From positions 1,947,014 to 2,011,013 of the forward strand of contig NZ_JAFN01000001.1 of assembly GCF_000526155.1 (NCBI RefSeq): DNA of 64,000 nt. The letters are read 5' to 3'. Below the pieces are notes generated by a model. The model had not been told where the DNA came from. It saw only the letters and a program-made list of their open reading frames with translations, and did no database searches. Of the stretch, positions 4,788-62,118 are shown in pieces. Each line of letters opens with the position of its first letter. The stretch's first letter is position 1. The translations under genes were made by a program, and so were the position numbers. This DNA comes from Deferrisoma camini S3R1. Lineage in GTDB: Bacteria; Desulfobacterota; Deferrisomatia; Deferrisomatales; Deferrisomataceae.

Positions 4788-4838
4788 GGCAGCCTCCGCC
4801 CCTATGCCCATGCGAGGGGGGATCTCCTCCCCGCCTCC

Positions 4839-4877
4839 ACGTCCCAACGTCCCAACGTCCTAACGTCCTAACATCCC
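4839..4877. repeat. octamer array (AACGTCCC/AACGTCCT) in the cheR-cheB gap
   Basis: Five consecutive 8-base units, AACGTCCC, AACGTCCC, AACGTCCT, AACGTCCT and AACATCCC, with transitions only. It is the complement of the GGGACGTT units at 32758-32790. The cheR stop codon and its last few codons lie inside the array. Confidence 0.85.
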
Positions 4878-14362: not shown

Positions 14363-14447
14363 CGCCTCATGCCGCGCCGTCCGGGTGCCGATGAGAGGGG
14401 CCGTGAGGTTCGTCAGTCCGCCCAACCCGTTCCTGGAGGATCTTTGC

Positions 14448-15560
14448 ATGCGAACCGCGCTCCTGGCCGCCCTGGTCTCCCTGCCCCTTGCGGCCGCACC
14501 GGCCGCGGCCCGCGAGCTGCCCCGGCTGCTGGCCCCGGCCGAAACCGGGGTGGTCCGCACCCCCCAGGTGCTGCTGGTGTACACCGTGCCCGCCGGCGAG
14601 CAGACCTTCGTGCGCGCCGATGGCAGGCGCCTCGACCGCAAAGGGGTGTCGGTGCCTGGGGACCGGGAGGATCTGTTCCACCTCCAGCTCCCCCTCAAAG
14701 AGGGGCGCAACCGGTTCGAGATCGTGCGGGCCGTGGACGAGAAGGTCCGCCTCTCGTTCACCGTGACCTACGTGCCCCCCTATTCGCTTCGCACCCCGGT
14801 CGCGCCGGGCGACCGGCCCTACGCGTTCCACACCCGCGAGCGCGAGGCCGGGTGCTCGGGCTGCCACAACCTGCCCGAAACCTACGAGACCGTGCCGGAC
14901 CGCCCCCTGGCCCCGGCGGGCAAGGTGTGCGGAGCGTGCCATCCCGGGATCGAGAAGGCCCCCAACCTCCACGGGCCCACCGCGGTGTACGCCTGCTTCA
15001 TGTGCCACGACCCGCAGTACCGGTCGGCCCGGTTCACGATCGCGGCCTCCCAGCCGGCGGGGTGCGGCCGGTGCCACGAGGACTTCCTGGCCCGGATCCT
15101 GGGGGGCAAGAAGTTCGTGCACGGGCCGGTGGCCGCCGGGGGGTGCCTGGTGTGCCACGATCCCCACGGCGGCAAGACCACCGCGGTGCTGCGCGAGGCG
15201 CCCCCGAAGCTGTGTCTGTTGTGCCATGCGGACACCCTGCCCCTGCCGGTGGACAAGGGCCTGCACGGATCGGTGCCCTGCACCCAGTGCCACAACCCCC
15301 ACGGCGGCGACACCCGGATCCTCACCGCCAAGGCCGGCAACGAGTTCTGCGCCGGGTGCCACCCGGACGTGGCCGAGGGGGGGCGCGGCCATCCCGTGGC
15401 GGGCCACCCGGTGGAGGCCGAGGTGGACCCCTCCCTCCCGGGCCGACCCCTGGGGTGCGTGAGCTGCCACGCCCCCCACGGGGTCTCGGACGTGAGCCGG
15501 GCCCGGATCCTGGAGAACGAACAGGCCCTGACCCGGTTCTGCCGGAAGTGCCACTACTGA
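14448..15560 (+). CDS. decaheme c-type cytochrome, exported
   Basis: A 370-residue exported cytochrome with a signal peptide (MRTALLAALVSLPLAAAPAAA), a region of about 100 residues without haem sites that looks like a small beta domain, then ten CXXCH haem motifs. In order these begin CSGCH, CGACH, CFMCH, CGRCH, CLVCH, CLLCH, CTQCH, CAGCH, CVSCH and CRKCH. Several are followed by HG, as in the doubled-CXXCH family. The last motif is three residues from the stop. The ATG at 14448 has GGAGG upstream; earlier in-frame starts lack one. It is likely a periplasmic or surface electron carrier, as in metal-reducing anaerobes. The stop codon TGA is the first triplet of the repeat element that follows. 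Confidence 0.93.
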   Translation: MRTALLAALVSLPLAAAPAAARELPRLLAPAETGVVRTPQVLLVYTVPAGEQTFVRADGRRLDRKGVSVPGDREDLFHLQLPLKEGRNRFEIVRAVDEKVRLSFTVTYVPPYSLRTPVAPGDRPYAFHTREREAGCSGCHNLPETYETVPDRPLAPAGKVCGACHPGIEKAPNLHGPTAVYACFMCHDPQYRSARFTIAASQPAGCGRCHEDFLARILGGKKFVHGPVAAGGCLVCHDPHGGKTTAVLREAPPKLCLLCHADTLPLPVDKGLHGSVPCTQCHNPHGGDTRILTAKAGNEFCAGCHPDVAEGGRGHPVAGHPVEAEVDPSLPGRPLGCVSCHAPHGVSDVSRARILENEQALTRFCRKCHY

Positions 15561-15825
15561 TACCAAGTTGCGTTCAAAGCCACTGGCCCCCTGAGCAGAG
15601 GGGCAAGGGACCTGCCGGAGAGCCGGGTGCGGCTCCTTAGCCCGCCGCGCAGCGCCTCCGGCGTTGGAGCCACGAAATGGCTTGCATTCTCCGGAGTTGG
15701 AATGAAACCAACTCTCCCGTCCCCTGCCTGCGCGGCGGATCTCAATACCCGGCTTCGCGCCCGGCCGGAGGCAGGTCCCTTGCCCCGCCTCCCCGAGGGC
15801 TCTCGGTTTGAACGCGACTCGGTAT
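15560..15825. repeat. complete MITE-like element with 19-bp terminal inverted repeats
   Basis: The best-defined copy of the repeat. The left end ATACCAAGTTGCGTTCAAA (15560-15578) matches the right end TTTGAACGCGACTCGGTAT (15807-15825) in inverse orientation with two mismatches. Between them lie the two half-palindromes, with outer arms GGGGCAAGGGACCTGC and GCAGGTCCCTTGCCCC and inner arms CCGCCGCGCAG and CTGCGCGGCGGAT. Each end begins with TA, compatible with a TA target duplication, which is not proven. It contains no transposase and fills most of the gap between the cytochrome and psd. Confidence 0.8.
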
Positions 15826-16529
15826 GAGGGCTTCTTTACCCCCGCAGGGCCCTCTGCTATAAGGGGCGGCCCGCACTCCAACCCGGGAGGGATCGATCTC
15901 CATGCTGCCCATCGTGCCCGATGCGTGGCCGTATGTCTGGAAGCTCTTGGCGCTGGCCGCGGTGACCGGCTTTCTCGGTTGGGAGACCCTGGCTTGGGCG
16001 TCCCTGGGGCTCACGGCGTTCGTGGTGTTCTTCTTCCGCGATCCGGAGCGGGAGGTCCCGATGGAGCCCGGCCTCGTGGTGTCACCGGCCGACGGCACGG
16101 TGCTCCGGGTGGACTCGGTGGAGGAGCCGTTCGTGGGCGGTCCGGCCGTGCGGGTCTCGATCTTCCTGAGCGTGTTCAACGTGCACGTGAACCGCTCGCC
16201 GATCACCGGAACCGTGCTGTTCCAGACCTACCGCCAGGGGAAGATGCTCCCGGCGTTCCGGGACCACGCCTCGGAGCTCAACGAGCGCAACACCCTGGGC
16301 ATCGAGGGCCAGGGGATCCGGGTCGTGGTGCACCAGATCACCGGCATGCTCGCCCGGCGGATCGTGTGCCGGGTGGGGCCGGGAGACCGGCTCCGGCGGG
16401 GGCAACGGTTCGGGCTGATCAAGCTGGGGTCGTGCACCGAGCTGATCCTGCCCGAGGGGGTGGAGCTGAGGGTGCAGCCGGGTCAGATGGTGGCGGGCGG
16501 ACGGACCGTGATCGCCCGGATTCCGGACG

Positions 16530-24711: not shown

Positions 24712-24960
24712 ATACGCGCCCCCGCCCCGGATCGGAGGGCAAGGGACCTGCTGGAGAGCCGGGCCCGGCCCCTTTGCTCGCCGCGCAGCGCCTCCTGCGT
24801 CCGGACCGCGAAATGGCACCCATTCCAAGGAGTTGTAATGGAACCAACTCCCGTGTCTCGTGCCTGCGCGGCGAATCTCAACACCCGGCTTCGCGCCCGG
24901 CCGGAGGCAGGTCCCTTGCCCCGCCTCCGGAAAAACGCGCCTGTCTTGTTGCCGGGTCAA
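24712..24960. repeat. palindromic repeat copy
   Basis: The core arms are GGGCAAGGGACCTGC (about 24737-24751) and GCAGGTCCCTTGCCCC (about 24907-24922), with inner arms CTCGCCGCGCAG and CTGCGCGGCGAAT. The right boundary GTTGCCGGGTCAA, read on the minus strand as TTGACCCGGCAAC, supplies the TGA stop of the 56-residue gene. Confidence 0.82.
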
Positions 24961-27899: not shown

Positions 27900-28290
27900 C
27901 GGGCCTTTGGCCCGCTGGGAGGCTAGGAGGCTGGGAAGCTAGGAGGCTTGAAAACCTCCGTGAACTCCATGTGTTCCAAGCGTGGCCACGCCTCTTCTGC
28001 ATCCCCTCACGGTGTCGGGGGGCATGGGGTCTGCTGGAGAGCCGCGTGCGGCCCCTTAGCTCGCCGCGCAGCGCCTCTGACGCTCGGACCGCGAAATGGC
28101 TCGGATTCCAGCGAGTTGTCATGAGACCAGCTCTTCGGTCCCGTGCCTGCGCGGCGAATCTCATGCCCGGCTTCGCGCGCGGCCGGAAGCAGGCCCCATG
28201 TCCCGCCGCCAAGGCCCCAGGATCTCTGAACGTTACCTTTCCTCGTTGCCGGGCCCCGCAGGGGCCTGACGAGGCTCCCAAACAACGCGA
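27900..28290. repeat. composite repeat: hairpin, octamers, palindromic core, GGCCCC hairpin
   Basis: GGGCCTTTGGCCCGC (about 27900) is followed by octamers of the TGGGAGGC/TAGGAGGC type (27914-27950), an A/T-richer spacer, the core (28017-28206) and a stem-loop CCTCGT...GGCCCCGCAGGGGCC...ACGAGG (28241-28276). The last bases GACTATTTCATCGCCGG are a boundary motif that encodes the final codons and stop of rqcH on the other strand. Confidence 0.85.
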
Positions 28291-29844
28291 CTATTTCATC
28301 GCCGGTTTGGGGCTTCCCCAGCCGGGGCGGACCCGCACAGTCTCCTCGCCGTGGACCACCACCCGCCCCGGGCCGGCCCCCTTGGGCTTGCGGACCCGTC
28401 CGGCCTCGACCACCATCACCTCCACCGCCCCCTCCCCCGACCGCCGGGACCTCAGGGCCGCCAGGCCGGCGGCCTCCCGGAGGGTGCGATCGGGGCACCG
28501 GGCCTCCCGGCCCGGTTTCCGGATCAGCACGTGGGCGCCGGGCGCGTCCCGGGCGTGGAGCCACAGGTCCCACGGCCGGGCCTCGCGCAGCAGCCGGTCG
28601 TTCTCCCGGCCGTTGCGGCCCACCCAGATGGGCCAGCCGTCCGACGACACGTACCGGGCGAAGGGCCGGCCCCCGGGATCCGGGCGTGGCGGCGCCGCAG
28701 GTGGGGGGCCGCCGTCCGCCGCTGCCCCCTCGAGCTCCGCCCGGGCCGCGGCCAGCCTCTCCGTGAGCACCTCGCGGGCCCGCTCGGCCTTGGCCGCCCG
28801 GCGGTACAGCCGCTCCAGGTTGTCGGCGGGGGACCGAGCCGGGTCCAGGGGCACCTCCACCTCCCCGCCGCCCCACGGGTCGGGCAGGACCACCGTGTCG
28901 GTCCCCCGGGCCACCCGGTGGAGCCCCGCGGCCAGGGCGTCGGCCAGCCGCCGCAGCCCGGCGGGGTCCGGAAGCCGGGCCAGGTCCTGCTCGATGTTGC
29001 GGATCCTGCGCTCGACCCTCCGCCTCCAACGGCGGGCGTCGGGGGCGTCGCCCTCGGCCGGGGCGCCCGGTCCCGCCACCCGGACCTCCAGCCACCGGCC
29101 GGCGCCTTCCAGGGCCGACGGCCACACGGCCACGGGCGCAGCCCCTTCCCGTTCCACAGCCGACAGTCCGTCCTCGTACTCCCACAGGGGGCCGGGCCGG
29201 CCGTAGGCCGCCAGGATCTCTTTGAACGCCACGGCCGCGCCCTTGCGGTCCATCCGGGCCCGAAGCTCCCGGGCCTGCCCCGGGGTCACCCCGAACAGGA
29301 TCCGCTCCAGCGGCTCGCCCCGGCCGACCCGGCGCTCCAGCTCCCAGGGGTCCGCCCGGTCCGGGAAGACCCGTCCCTCGGGCACGGGGGGCGGCTCGTA
29401 CGGCCGACCCGGCGAGAGGCCCGGCCGGGGTCGGACCGCCTGGACCGCCCGGACCCGGCCGTCCGGATCCAGCACCGCCAAAAGGGGATGGCGACCGGCG
29501 GCCTCCCACACCAGGGAGCACCCGCCGTCGCCCCGGCGAAAGGCGAGCTCGAGCACCCGGTCGAACCGGCCCCAACGCACGCCTTCGAGCCGTCCGCCCA
29601 CGGCGTGGGCCCGCAGGTACGCGGCCAGGGCCGGGGGGCGGGGCGGGGCGGTGGGCCGGCGCTCCACCAACCCAACCCCCACGGCCCGCGGACCCGCCGC
29701 CAGCATGAGCAACCCGGTCCGCCCCGGGGCCCGCAGCCGCACCACCGCCCCCCAGTCGGGGGAGGCCCAGGCCCCCTGGACCCACGCCCCCCGCCAGTCC
29801 CGCTCCAGCTCGGCGCCGACCCGGGCCACCACCCACGGATCCAT
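28291..29844 (-). CDS. rqcH: NFACT-family protein (RqcH-like)
   Basis: Homologue of bacterial RqcH/eukaryotic NEMF, which binds stalled 50S-peptidyl-tRNA and adds C-terminal alanine tails. A 517-residue protein with an N-terminal NFACT-N region, a central helical and coiled-coil part (RRWRRRVERRIRNIEQDLA, AKAERAREVLTERLAAARAEL) and the diagnostic NFACT-R domain (SDGWPIWVGRNGRENDRLL, WDLWLHARDAPGAHVLIR). The protein is on the short side for the family. The start MDPWVV at 29844 is 11 bases after sppA. The C-terminal KPAMK and the TAG stop come from a repeat boundary. Confidence 0.88.
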   Translation of the reverse strand: MDPWVVARVGAELERDWRGAWVQGAWASPDWGAVVRLRAPGRTGLLMLAAGPRAVGVGLVERRPTAPPRPPALAAYLRAHAVGGRLEGVRWGRFDRVLELAFRRGDGGCSLVWEAAGRHPLLAVLDPDGRVRAVQAVRPRPGLSPGRPYEPPPVPEGRVFPDRADPWELERRVGRGEPLERILFGVTPGQARELRARMDRKGAAVAFKEILAAYGRPGPLWEYEDGLSAVEREGAAPVAVWPSALEGAGRWLEVRVAGPGAPAEGDAPDARRWRRRVERRIRNIEQDLARLPDPAGLRRLADALAAGLHRVARGTDTVVLPDPWGGGEVEVPLDPARSPADNLERLYRRAAKAERAREVLTERLAAARAELEGAAADGGPPPAAPPRPDPGGRPFARYVSSDGWPIWVGRNGRENDRLLREARPWDLWLHARDAPGAHVLIRKPGREARCPDRTLREAAGLAALRSRRSGEGAVEVMVVEAGRVRKPKGAGPGRVVVHGEETVRVRPGWGSPKPAMK

Positions 29845-32738: not shown

Positions 32739-32885
32739 CCTTCGGCCCGCCGGGGGGGGACGCTGGGACGTTAGGACGCTGGGAGGCTGGGAGGCCAAAA
32801 ACTCTTTTGCCTCCTGGCGGTTCAACCAGGTCTGCGCGTCACGGCATCACGGCCCGGGGGCATGGGGTCTGCCGACGGGCCGGCT
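32739..32885. repeat. partial composite repeat overlapping the cmk 3' end
   Basis: Units in order: the CGCCTTCGGCCCG hairpin, octamers GGGACGCT, GGGACGTT, AGGACGCT, GGGAGGCT (about 32758-32790), a CACGGCATCACGGC octamer pair and the left arm GGGGGCATGGGGTCTGCC (32856-32873). The rest of the core is missing. Confidence 0.75.
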
Positions 32886-46056: not shown

Positions 46057-47435
46057 CGGCCCCCTTCGCCCCCGGCCGGGTGATCCGGCTGGCCCTCGCC
46101 CGGGGCGGGGATCTGGCGGAAGTGTACTGGGAGAAGGCCCGCAGCGCCACCGTGGTGCTGGAGGCGGGCCGGGTCGAGGAGGCCCGCGCCGGCATCCGGC
46201 ACGGGGCAGGCATCCGGGTGGTCGAGGGGGAGCACGAGGTCTACGGCCACCAGACCGGGCCCGACCCCTCGTCCCTGGAGGAGCTGGCTCGGGAGGTGGC
46301 GCGGCTCCGGCCCGGCTCGGAGCCGGCCGTGGTGGCCTCCGGCGCCGTCGCGCCCCTGGCGGGGCCGGGCAGGGATCCGTTCGCGGGCCTCGACCTGGCC
46401 GCCCGCGCCGACCTGGCACGCCGGCTCGACCGAGCGGCCCGGGCCGTGGACCGCCGGGTGGCGCAGGTGCGGGTGATCTACCAGGACCACGCCCAGGAGG
46501 TGTGGGTCGCGCCGTCCGACGGCCCGCCGGTGCGGGACCTGCGTACCGGGTTCTATTTGGGCGTCCTGGTGGTGGCCCGAGACGGCGAGGTGGTCCAGAC
46601 CGGGTACGAGGCCGTGGCCGCCACCAGGGGCTGGGAGGTGTTCGACGAGCAGCCGCCCGAGGAGCTGGCGGTGACCGCGACCCGCAGGGCCGTGCGGCTC
46701 CTCTCGGCGCCCCGGGCCCCGGCCGGCCGGATGCCGGTGGTGCTGGCCAGCCAGGCGGGGGGCACCATGGTGCACGAGGCCGTGGGCCACGGTCTGGAGG
46801 CCGACCTGGTGCTGCAGGGGCACTCGGTGTACGCGGGCCGGGTCGGGGAGACCGTGGCATCGGAGCTCGTAACGGTGGTGGACGACCCCACATTGCCCGG
46901 GCGGCGGGGGTCCTACCGGTTTGACGACGAGGGAACCCCGGCCCAGCGGACCGTGCTGGTGGAACGGGGCGTCCTCAAGGGCTTCCTCCACAGCCGCACC
47001 ACGGCCCGCCGCATGGGGGCCCGGCCCACCGGCCACGGCCGGCGGGAGTCGTTCGCCCACCGGCCGATCCCCCGCATGGGGAACACCCTGATCGCCCCCG
47101 GGCCCCACGACCCGGAGGAGATCCTGCGCGAGACCCCCACGGGCCTGTACGTGACCCGCATGGGCGGGGGCCAGGTGGACACGGTGAGCGGGGACTTCGT
47201 GTTCGAGGTGGCGGAGGGGTTCCGGATCGAGAGCGGCCGGGTGGGCGAGCCGGTGCGGGGAGCCACCTTGGTGGGCAACGGCCCCCGGGTGCTCCGGGAG
47301 ATCGACCGGGTCGGTTCGGACCTGGGGTTCTCGGTGGGCACCTGCGGCAAGGACGGCCAGGGGGTGCCCGTGGCCGACGCCCAACCCACCCTGCGGATCC
47401 CCGAGATGGTGGTGGGCGGCGAGGCAGGCTGTTGA
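46053..47435 (+). CDS. tldD: TldD/PmbA-type metalloprotease subunit
   Basis: 460 residues. The zinc motif HEAVGHGLEAD and the SGDFVFEVAEGFRI, GATLVGNGP and VGTCGKDGQGVPVADAQPTLRIPEM segments place it with TldD, which together with TldE/PmbA cleaves peptides such as modified peptide antibiotics and CcdA. No tldE neighbour is present. The GTG start overlaps the DUF4911 stop. The TGA stop falls in the boundary motif GTTGACCCGGC of the following repeat. Confidence 0.93.
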   Translation: MTAPFAPGRVIRLALARGGDLAEVYWEKARSATVVLEAGRVEEARAGIRHGAGIRVVEGEHEVYGHQTGPDPSSLEELAREVARLRPGSEPAVVASGAVAPLAGPGRDPFAGLDLAARADLARRLDRAARAVDRRVAQVRVIYQDHAQEVWVAPSDGPPVRDLRTGFYLGVLVVARDGEVVQTGYEAVAATRGWEVFDEQPPEELAVTATRRAVRLLSAPRAPAGRMPVVLASQAGGTMVHEAVGHGLEADLVLQGHSVYAGRVGETVASELVTVVDDPTLPGRRGSYRFDDEGTPAQRTVLVERGVLKGFLHSRTTARRMGARPTGHGRRESFAHRPIPRMGNTLIAPGPHDPEEILRETPTGLYVTRMGGGQVDTVSGDFVFEVAEGFRIESGRVGEPVRGATLVGNGPRVLREIDRVGSDLGFSVGTCGKDGQGVPVADAQPTLRIPEMVVGGEAGC

Positions 47436-47515
47436 CCCGGCGGAAAAGGAGGCGAGTTCGCCGGAGGCGGGCCATGGGGTCTGCCTCCGGCCATGCGGGA
47501 GTGTCGGGGGCGGAG
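47433..47515. repeat. truncated palindromic repeat after tldD
   Basis: TTGACCCGGCGGAAAAGGAGGCGAG followed by GGGCCATGGGGTCTGCCTCCGGCCATGCGGGAGTG, then a few degenerate heptamers (GAGACCAGAGACTAG). One arm only. Confidence 0.65.
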
Positions 47516-48483: not shown

Positions 48484-49860
48484 ATGCGCAGCGCGTTCGT
48501 GATCGCGGCCCCCTGGTCGGGGTCGGGCAAGACCACGGTGACCCTGGCCGTGCTGGCGGCCCTGCAACGCCGGGGCCTGCGGGTGCAGGCGTTCAAGGTG
48601 GGGCCCGACTACATCGACCCGGCGCACCACGCCAGGATCACCGGCCGCCCCTCCCACAACCTGGACACCTGGATGATCCCCAGGGCCGTGAACCGCCGGC
48701 TGTTCCACGCCTCGGCAGCCGATGCGGACGTGGCCGTGGTGGAGGGGGTGATGGGCCTGTTCGACGGGGTGGACGGGACCCGGCCCGAGGGCTCCACGGC
48801 CCACCTCGCCCGGACGATTCGGCTGCCCGTGGTGCTGGTGGTGGACGCCCGGTCCATGGCCCGCAGCGCGGCGGCCCTCGTGCAGGGGTTCGCCTCGTTC
48901 ACGCCCCGGGTGCCCATCACCGGCGTGGTCTGGAACCGGGTGGGCAGCCCCACCCACCGACGGATCCTGGACGAGGCGCTGGCCGCCGCGGGGCTGCCCC
49001 CCGCGTTGGGGGCGCTGCCCCCGGAACCGGGGCTGGCCCTGCCCGAGCGGCACCTGGGGCTGGTCACCCCGGAGGACGCGGCCCTGCCCCCCGCGTGGGA
49101 GGACCGCCTGGCGGCGTGGATCGAGGACCACCTGGACCTGGACCGGCTCCTCGAGCGCACCCCGCCCCCCCCTCCTCCCCGGCTGCCCGTGCCCCGGCGC
49201 CGGGCGGGGACGCGCACCGTGGCCGTGGCGCGGGACGCGGCGTTCTGCTTCTACTACGACGAGAACCTGAGGCTGCTCGAGCGGGCCGGGGCCCGGATCG
49301 TCCGGTTCTCGCCGCTGGCCGGCGACGGTGTGCCGCCCGACGCGGACGCGGTGTACTTGGGCGGAGGCTACCCCGAGGTGCACGCAGAGCGGCTGGCGGC
49401 CAACCAGGCCTTCCTGGACGGGCTGCGGGGGTTCCACTCCCAGGGCCGCCCCATCTACGCCGAGTGCGGAGGGTTCATGGTGCTGTGCCGGTCTCTGGAG
49501 ACTCCCCGAGGGGGGCGGGTGCCCATGGCCGGGATCTTTCCGGCCGAGGCCCGGATGCGCTCCGGCCGGTTCCATCTGGGCTACCGCGAGGTGGTGGTGC
49601 AGGGGGTGGCCGGCATGGACGGGCTCACGGCCCGGGGTCACGAGTTCCACTACTCGGAACTGGTGGCCCCACCCCAAGGGGTGGAGACGGTGTACCGGGT
49701 GCGCAACGCCCGGGGCGAGGAGCTCGGTCGGGAGGGGTACCGGTCGGGCGCTGCCCTGGCCGGGTACATTCACCTGCACTTCGCCTCGTGCCCCGATCTG
49801 CCGCTTCGGTGGCTCGGGCTGTCGGGGCCCAGGCCCTGCCGGGCAGAGACCAGAAACTAG
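48484..49860 (+). CDS. cbiA: cobyrinate a,c-diamide synthase
   Basis: 458 residues, glutamine-dependent amidation of cobyrinate at a and c side chains. N-terminal P-loop APWSGSGKTTVTLAVL with KVGPDYIDPAHH and VVEGVMGLFDGVDG. C-terminal amidotransferase with YLGGGYPEVHAERLAAN, nucleophile Cys in YAECGGFMVLC and RGHEFHYSEL. ATG at 48484 with GGAGAACG upstream. The last residues (RAETRN) and the TAG stop are read from a heptamer array. Confidence 0.95.
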   Translation: MRSAFVIAAPWSGSGKTTVTLAVLAALQRRGLRVQAFKVGPDYIDPAHHARITGRPSHNLDTWMIPRAVNRRLFHASAADADVAVVEGVMGLFDGVDGTRPEGSTAHLARTIRLPVVLVVDARSMARSAAALVQGFASFTPRVPITGVVWNRVGSPTHRRILDEALAAAGLPPALGALPPEPGLALPERHLGLVTPEDAALPPAWEDRLAAWIEDHLDLDRLLERTPPPPPPRLPVPRRRAGTRTVAVARDAAFCFYYDENLRLLERAGARIVRFSPLAGDGVPPDADAVYLGGGYPEVHAERLAANQAFLDGLRGFHSQGRPIYAECGGFMVLCRSLETPRGGRVPMAGIFPAEARMRSGRFHLGYREVVVQGVAGMDGLTARGHEFHYSELVAPPQGVETVYRVRNARGEELGREGYRSGAALAGYIHLHFASCPDLPLRWLGLSGPRPCRAETRN

Positions 49861-49990
49861 AGACTAGACCATGCCCCCGATATTTGGCGGGTTCGAGAGC
49901 CGCCTGGCTAGTGTCATGGTTCGCAAGTTCGTGCAGTTCCGAGGGGGTGGGGCTGAGGGCCCCTCCGTGCAGGGAGCGGTAACGCCCGTT
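49846..49990. repeat. heptamer array and half copy of the second repeat family
   Basis: AGAGACC, AGAAACT, AGAGACT, AGACC (49846-49870), then from 49908 CTAGTGTCATGGTTCGC followed by GGGGGTGGGGCTGAGGGCCCCTCC, one arm of the element at 47524. A CCGTTTATCCGCCGG boundary follows at about 49986-50000. Confidence 0.7.
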
Positions 49991-51511: not shown

Positions 51512-51770
51512 GTCCTCATATCAAAATTCTCGGCCCCCTGGGCTGGCGGGGCAAGGGACCTGCCTCCGGCCGGGCGCGAAGCCGGGCATGAGATTCGCCG
51601 CGCAGGCGCGGGGCAGAAGAGCAGGTTTCATGACAGCTCGGTGGAATCCGACCATTTCGCGGTCCGAGCATCAGAGGCGCTGCGCGGCGAGCTAAGGGGC
51701 CGCGCCCGGCTCTCCGACAGGCCCTTTGCCCCGCCCTGGTGGAGCTCTATTTGAAGGCAACCTGGGATCA
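51512..51770. repeat. palindromic repeat copy, inverted, ending in the DUF1015 stop codon
   Basis: The core (about 51545-51738) is in inverse orientation to the 15560 copy, with arms GGGGCAAGGGACCTGCC and GGCCCTTTGCCCC. The right end TTTGAAGGCAACCTGGGATCA is the terminal repeat with changes, and its last TCA is the complement of the DUF1015 stop. The left terminal repeat is truncated (ATATCAAAATTCTCGG). Confidence 0.8.
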
Positions 51771-61061: not shown

Positions 61062-61904
61062 ATGCGGGCCATGCGGACCGGCCTCGTGTTGGGCCTGATC
61101 CTGGCCGGGGCCAACGCGGCCGGGGCTGCGCCGCCGGACCTGGCGGAGGGGCGTTACCCCTATCTCGCGCCGAGCGGGGGGGCCACCCCCCTGGTGGCCC
61201 GGTGGGCGGGGCTGGCCCGGGCCATGCCCGACTGGAAGGACAAGGCCAAGGCGGCCCACTACCGGTTCCCGGCGGACAAGCCGGGTCGCCGGTGTGATCA
61301 GCCAAAGTGCCACCCGGGGTTTCGGGACGCCTACGTCCAGCGGCTCCTGGCCCTCCCCGAGGGGTCTTCCCGCCAGAACGCCCGGCAGGGCCGGCTGGGG
61401 CTCGCCCGATGCGGCGACTGCCACACCTGGGATCGGATCCGGGAGCGGACCGCCGCGTGCCGGCTCCACTTCGACCAGCCCGACCGGGTCGAGTGCACCG
61501 CCTGTCACCTGGAGGGGCCGAAGGTCCTGGAGCCCCGTGGCGACAAGAAGACCGTCTCGGTCCGAGGCGCAGCCCCGCTGGGGGCCTGGCCCACCCACCG
61601 GCTCACCCGGGACGAGAAGGCGATCCCCTGCGACCAGACGTGTCACGTGCCCCAAAACCCCTTTGGGGTGGAGCAGGTGTGCAACGACTGCCACGGAGAG
61701 GGCAAGCTCCGGGTGGCCCGCTTGGCCGCACCAGGGGTGCTGGTGCACGCCACCGACCCGAAGAGCCCGTGGCCCCGCCTCACCCACCGGTTCTTCCTGT
61801 GGCTCACCACCGGCGTGAGCGGGGCCCTTCTGGCCTACATCCTCCTCGACCTGGTGCGTTCCCGGAAGCATCCTCAGGCCCCTGCGGGGCCGTCTAGAGG
61901 CTAG
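61062..61904 (+). CDS. five-haem c-type cytochrome with C-terminal membrane anchor
   Basis: 280 residues. Signal peptide (MRTGLVLGLILAGANAAGA), then five haem-binding motifs: CX4CH at residues 78-84 (CDQPKCH), CX2CH at 117-121 (CGDCH) and 145-149 (CTACH), CX3CH at 190-195 (CDQTCH) and CX2CH at 207-211 (CNDCH). A transmembrane helix (FFLWLTTGVSGALLAYILLDLV, about 244-265) anchors the C-terminus. It lies between fdhB and the cytochrome b, so it probably carries electrons within this complex. Spaced motifs of this type need a suitable lyase. The final PSRG and stop come from the repeat. Confidence 0.88.
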   Translation: MRAMRTGLVLGLILAGANAAGAAPPDLAEGRYPYLAPSGGATPLVARWAGLARAMPDWKDKAKAAHYRFPADKPGRRCDQPKCHPGFRDAYVQRLLALPEGSSRQNARQGRLGLARCGDCHTWDRIRERTAACRLHFDQPDRVECTACHLEGPKVLEPRGDKKTVSVRGAAPLGAWPTHRLTRDEKAIPCDQTCHVPQNPFGVEQVCNDCHGEGKLRVARLAAPGVLVHATDPKSPWPRLTHRFFLWLTTGVSGALLAYILLDLVRSRKHPQAPAGPSRG

Positions 61905-62106
61905 AAACTAGAGACTAGAAACTAGAGAAATCTTGACGGCCTCGGACCGTGTGGTGGAGGCGAAGAGGCATGAAGGTTCCTAGAACGTACGGGAATCCGC
62001 GAGGTTTTCAAGCCTTCTAGCCTCTTAGCTTTCCAGCCTTCAAGCGGGCCGAAGGCCCCAGACCGACGACCGTTGACCGTAGACCGACGACCGAAGTTAC
62101 TGGGAA
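61868..62106. repeat. composite repeat inside the fdh operon
   Basis: GGCCCCTGCGGGGCC hairpin (61878-61892), heptamers CTAGAGG, CTAGAAA, CTAGAGA repeated (61894-61926), a spacer, octamers (CTTCTAGCCTCTTAGCTTTCCAGC, about 62015-62043), the inverse UUCG hairpin GCGGGCCGAAGGCCCC, then heptamers GACCGACGACCGTTGACCGTAGACCG ending at the boundary GAAGTTACTGGGAAGG. No core. It separates the cytochrome c from the cytochrome b gene of one operon. Confidence 0.85.
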
Positions 62107-62118
62107 GGAGATGAGGGG

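Follow-up and report, generated by a model that had tools for sequence, protein, structure and literature searches.

A probable TNA-targeting MITE is enriched at gene stop codons in Deferrisoma camini S3R1

Introduction

Insertion sequences of the IS1031 group of IS5 use TNA as target and duplicate 3 bp, and ISLrh was inserted into a TGA (PMC12016507). NuwaII, a eukaryotic transposon of the PIF/Harbinger-IS5 group, has the target C-TNA-G (PMC4482050). Bacterial MITEs are short, carry inverted ends, duplicate their target and produce ORF fusions or new stops (Delihas, PMC2229807; MITEAba12, PMC6382973). The ends of the Coxiella elements QMITE1 and QMITE2 overlap the 3′ ends of genes by a few bases, with a C-terminal tail on EnhC (PMC5896051). 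REP sequences of the GTAG and CGTC superfamilies are 20-40 bp palindromes tagged with GTAG or CGTC (PMC3733652).

Here, we describe a repeat (type A) of D. camini S3R1 that resembles the IS1031 group in its TNA target and 3-bp duplication. ISLrh ends start with GAACCTGTC and ISLrh carries its transposase (PMC12016507), whereas type-A ends start with TACCAAG. Type A falls outside the IS1031 group by its ends (those of ISLrh being the only ones compared) and because no IS5-type transposase with these ends was present in the searched genomes; by analogy, it would work like an IS1031-type MITE. The NuwaII target is near the WC-TGA preference of type A, a likeness of target only, NuwaII being a eukaryotic transposon (PMC4482050). 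The MITEs of Delihas (PMC2229807) and MITEAba12 (PMC6382973) mostly have TA ends or 9-bp duplications, unlike type A, and MITEAba12 truncates a gene whereas type A spares the stop. The available text on QMITE1 and QMITE2 (PMC5896051) does not mention duplication of a targeted stop codon. With ends TACC/GGTA and 3-bp duplications, type A is not a REP of the GTAG/CGTC type (PMC3733652). Neither a MITE that targets stop codons nor a paper on type-A ends turned up in a literature search covering few subscription journals.

Materials and Methods

The source genome (G000) is one contig of 4.24 Mb. The window is the stretch of 64,000 nucleotides at G000:C1:1947014-2011013 (72% GC), and coordinates below are window positions unless a contig is named. 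The G000 sample consisted of 60 systematic 20-kb stretches plus syntenic stretches (∼38% of the genome), in which genes were called with a custom gene finder; type-A counts leave out ends <15 bases from a segment edge. The genomes compared were G001 and G002, of the same genus, and G003, of the same family. RqcH of the window is 91% identical to a protein of the MAG contig JALUTY010000060 and 52% identical to that of a Deferrisomatales MAG.

Results and Discussion

A palindromic core of ∼200 nt was found with several end types in the G000 sample (83 matches in 1.26 Mb, 55 of them full-length). The end types were taken from the 55 full-length matches, partial core matches being excluded:

Type A: ends TACCAAGTTGCGTTCAAA
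Type B: ends CCCGGCGACAAAATAGGCGCG or CCCGGCGGATAAACAGGCGC
Type C: heptamer and octamer arrays
Type D: ends CTAAGACCTTCAAACG, with a TA duplication

In type B, TTNA precedes CCCGGC; its left and right flanks are mismatched, and no target duplication could be fixed from them. Type D is a second mobile family and is polymorphic (G001:C78 34305-34576 vs. G000 2893980).

Type-A ends number 95 in G000 (≤2 mismatches), and the reversed-pattern control gave 0. The 74 ends in 1.55 Mb of G000 make up 50 insertions, 24 paired and 26 single; the paired copies are 72-522 bp long with inverted ends of ∼18 bp. Identical 3-base flanks were present in 15 of the 24 pairs (14 TNA and 1 TAG), while four pairs matched at two of three flank bases, two at one and three at none. 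When three extra stretches were included (1.61 Mb), the count rose to 56 insertions, with perfect flanks in 18/29 pairs. The target is TNA, usually TGA, and 3 bp are duplicated. Type A is thus short and multicopy, has inverted ends, a target duplication and both filled and empty sites, and bears no transposase, as MITEs do. The identical flanks, together with three empty sites at intact stops, argue that it is a MITE with a TNA target; counting against this are the five pairs of 24 that match at only 0-1 of the three bases and the lack of a transposase with type-A ends. We consider it quite probable that type A is a MITE with a TNA target like that of the IS1031 group of IS5, for which stops are harmless, motif-matching targets.

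Two of the nine gene ends listed in an initial annotation of the window adjoin type-A elements:

15558..15560, + strand: stop TGA of the decaheme cytochrome gene, the left target-duplication copy (right copy at 15825-15827)
15561..15824, + strand: type-A element, 264 bp, ends TACCAAGTTGCGTTCAAA / TTTGAACGCGACTCGGTA, RNA fold z −7.8
51768-51770, − strand: stop TGA of the DUF1015 gene (second TGA copy at 51516-51518)
51519..51767, − strand: type-A element, 249 bp, with diverged ends, 3′ of the DUF1015 stop

Of the 50 insertions, 11 could be compared because G001 and/or G002 contained the two flanks; the resulting 13 flank comparisons comprised 3 empty sites and 10 filled or otherwise altered sites. 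Each of the three empty sites is a gene stop, with a single TGA where the filled site reads TGA-element-TGA. G001 has one TGA at the decaheme site and G000 has two; the C-terminus HCHY followed by the stop is the same with or without the element, and is also that of G003. For DUF1015, G002 has the empty site with an identical stop and G001 has the element. The third empty site belongs to a pyruvate-ferredoxin-oxidoreductase family protein (436016), whose ends, translated from DNA, read GYEFLAGTGG and GYEFLTGADD before the stop. The TGA of the decaheme and DUF1015 genes is therefore a duplicated target lying outside the element, and the insertion left the stop unaltered. A type-A copy present only in G002 lies at TCA (window 14413-14415, empty in G000), upstream of the decaheme signal peptide and off any stop, which indicates that the target is TNA, beyond stops alone.

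At the decaheme site, the G000 and G002 copies have identical ends and different interiors, the G000 core being 138 bp longer. This suggests that cores come and go independently of type-A ends.

Figures for the 1.55 Mb show that 22 of 50 type-A insertions touch a predicted stop, one of them shifted by one base; in 1.61 Mb the numbers were 24/56, the other 32 lying off predicted stops. In G001, 6/15 insertions were at stops, and 3/8 among those not common to the sampled G000 insertions. The genes hit include those for FtsY, citrate synthase, a NupC-type transporter, a uracil/xanthine permease, OppC and a deoxynucleoside kinase. Seventeen of the 22 stop-hit genes were searched against Pfam, and every one had a match, 16 above the curated cut-off and a PIN-domain match below it. 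Several of the domains reach the last residues, which shows the proteins concerned to be untruncated. Only partial matches were obtained for the PIN and aldolase domains.

Type-A ends were flush with a gene stop in 21/74 cases, compared to 3/47 for type B, 0/25 for type D, 0/88 for type-C heads, 0/74 for type-C tails and 0/66 for octamers; no spike like that of type A appeared in these five classes, for which the same DNA was scanned. Insertions occupied 21 of 653 TGA stops vs. 9 of 4401 other noncoding TGA (Fisher p 7e-13), the latter made up of 5/1137 within 120 nt downstream and 4/3264 elsewhere. Coincidence between dense repeats (the core density given above) and a TGA that is common beside genes is thus an extremely improbable explanation, given this difference and the five classes that lack a comparable spike.

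The base before TGA was C in 17/19 hit stops vs. 287/856 of all TGA stops. With the WC-TGA motif matched, 14 of 97 stops (about one in seven in the sampled genome) carried type A vs. 4 of 301 other noncoding sites (p 1.5e-6); these controls split into 2/101 within 120 nt downstream and 2/200 elsewhere, and against the nearby 3′ sites alone the difference had a p of 0.001. Paired type-A interiors were masked in the controls, and other repeats and single-ended copies were left unmasked, so the enrichment may be inflated. A several-fold excess at stops remains over motif-matched sites; it may stem from younger repeats left unmasked in the controls. In our reading, most of the excess at stops comes from the motif together with selection against insertions that fall in genes and promoters.

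The comparison with nearby 3′ sites of equal motif is also what would be expected if the element or its machinery recognised stop codons as such, e.g., via termination or gene-end DNA. We regard such recognition as unlikely, since insertions also occur at non-stop TNA, including TTA, and the nearby controls may lie in younger repeats. To our knowledge, no known DDE transposase reads codons. It is similarly doubtful that a phylum-wide MITE family is guided in its transposition by the stop codon as such, and not just by WC-TGA; if it were, the element would sort itself to the only position in a gene at which the duplication it creates mends the damage.

In the favored model, the type-A MITE (a non-autonomous transposon) would insert at TNA, prefer (A/T)C-TGA and duplicate three bases. 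A stop TGA becomes TGA-element-TGA, the step seen at the empty sites, and the upstream gene retains its stop and C-terminus. Selection would then remove intragenic insertions, and copies would accumulate at stop codons, where they would be harmless and the motif fits. A stop codon that serves as target and is duplicated would give a mobile element a simple way to live in dense coding DNA. Of the two options raised in the initial annotation, that insertion targets 3′ ends or that elements with built-in stops are tolerated there, the first holds for the TACCAAG-ended type A, with its TNA target and stops hit far above background.

The other gene ends would have a separate origin, in which the DNA of older or unrelated repeats became the new tail and stop in five genes and may have done so in the last two listed:

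28283..28306, − strand: type-B terminus with the last codons of rqcH and its TAG (28291-28293), the stop being at +13 of the terminus
61869..62102, strand not assigned: 234-bp composite repeat in the 3′ end of the fdh cytochrome c gene, with GGAAG at 61864-61868 and 62103-62107
61902-61904, + strand: stop TAG of the fdh cytochrome gene
4835..4875, − strand: 3′-terminal 8-bp tandem units of cheR, with its TAG at 4860-4862
49842..49866, + strand: last residues of cbiA and TAG (49858-49860) in repeat-like DNA, tail different from G001
32822..32875, − strand: core-like remnant GGCAGACCCCATGCCCC giving a 17-residue tail of cmk, stop TGA at 32822-32824
24935..24959, − strand: type-B terminus TTGACCCGGC at the stop of a 56-residue peptide (TGA 24957-24959)
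47432..47457, + strand: type-B-like terminus TTGACCCGGCGG at the tldD stop (TGA 47433-47435)

Repeat DNA is the source of the stop and of the last ∼2-17 residues in rqcH, the fdh cytochrome c gene, cheR, cbiA and cmk. The rqcH end is identical in G001, and a 75%-identical homologue without the terminus stops five residues past the common RPA/KPA. In the fdh cytochrome gene, the repeat entered four codons ahead of the stop and GGAAG was duplicated, changing the tail from EMRG to HPQAPAGPSRG; G001 has a single GGAAG and ends in EMRG and the stop. This 5-bp duplication at 61864-62107 suggests that whole heptamer/octamer composites may be mobile too. The cheR gene has two 8-bp units more than that of G001, which puts it in a different frame and hence at a different stop; the G001 frame continues into the next gene. 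The tails of cbiA (5 residues) and cmk differ in G001 and G002, and G002 stops cmk 15 residues earlier, the Pfam domain ending at 218 of 240. The termini at the 56-residue peptide (common to G001 and G002) and at tldD (common to G001) are lacking in G003. Both stops are a TGA within TTGA-CCCGGC, and the G003 ends differ by one to three residues, the peptide ending three residues later there; the change may have gone in either direction.

The nine stops lie where the initial annotation placed them, each in or adjoining repeat DNA. Pfam bore out seven of the gene names; the fdh cytochrome had only a sub-cut-off cytochrome match and the 56-residue peptide had no match. The ending of cheR, cbiA, the fdh cytochrome gene and cmk in repeat sequence was confirmed. 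The claim that repeat ends supply the stops does not apply to the decaheme and DUF1015 genes, whose duplicated TGA is present in element-free relatives: homologues without the repeat share their C-terminus and stop, which is the refuting condition set in the initial annotation. For rqcH, fdh, cbiA and cmk, such homologues differ and the claim holds. The nine stops were treated as one phenomenon and mix two different processes. That repeat ends with built-in stops supply them to genes in general is very unlikely, even though rqcH is a true case, the other four tails lie in repeat DNA and three type-B ends yield TAG at +13; type-A empty sites already have the stop, and the TAG at +13 occurred in only 3/69 type-B-like matches. 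Tolerance of built-in stops thus applies to a minority, namely the rqcH type-B terminus and the tails of fdh, cheR, cbiA and cmk. A stop flanked by a repeat is alone no evidence of a repeat-made C-terminus; rqcH and the fdh cytochrome gene are real cases.

The RNA of the decaheme element, the one element folded, forms one long stem directly after the stop (−153.2 kcal/mol, with 0/200 shuffles as good). The transcript of a hit gene would accordingly bear a long hairpin directly after its stop. Such a strong hairpin behind ftsY, citrate synthase and NupC-type transporter genes may affect mRNA ends, a role that we infer.

The repeats are also present in G001 and G002, and G003 has relatives of the core and no type-A ends. 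Among 198 genomes drawn from the phylum, 20 have type-A ends (one mismatch allowed), one of which (G139) was not above its reversed-pattern control. Flanks at the eight phylum loci inspected were mostly TNA, and other families of the phylum also have type-A ends with TNA duplications. One genome (G098) has >200 type-A ends, and a hand count of its outer pairs >43 bp gave perfect TNA duplications in 15/18. In small regions of G098 chosen around the ends, with weak gene calls, 10/76 TNA-flanked ends were at a predicted stop; of 1688 noncoding TNA sites, 82 were stops. Many G098 ends form 43-bp near-perfect palindromes, TACCAAGTTGCGATCAAA-N7-TTTGATCGCAACTTGGTA.

No transposase with type-A ends (TACCAAGTTGC) was found in the few families and genomes searched. 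PF13340 and PF13359 transposases were absent from G000, G001, G002 and G098; G126 was the only genome with matches (three), and the two checked had no matching ends nearby. A PF01609 search gave no type-A partner, and a 1.18-kb type-A pair had no recognisable transposase in frames read by eye. A 1.76-kb type-A copy was considered as the autonomous partner and rejected, since it is a MITE with a nested IS4-family IS. This IS of ∼1.49 kb lies inside the type-A element with a 10-bp duplication (G000:C1:2264849-2266611), encodes a 400-aa transposase, of which the genome has 7 identical copies.
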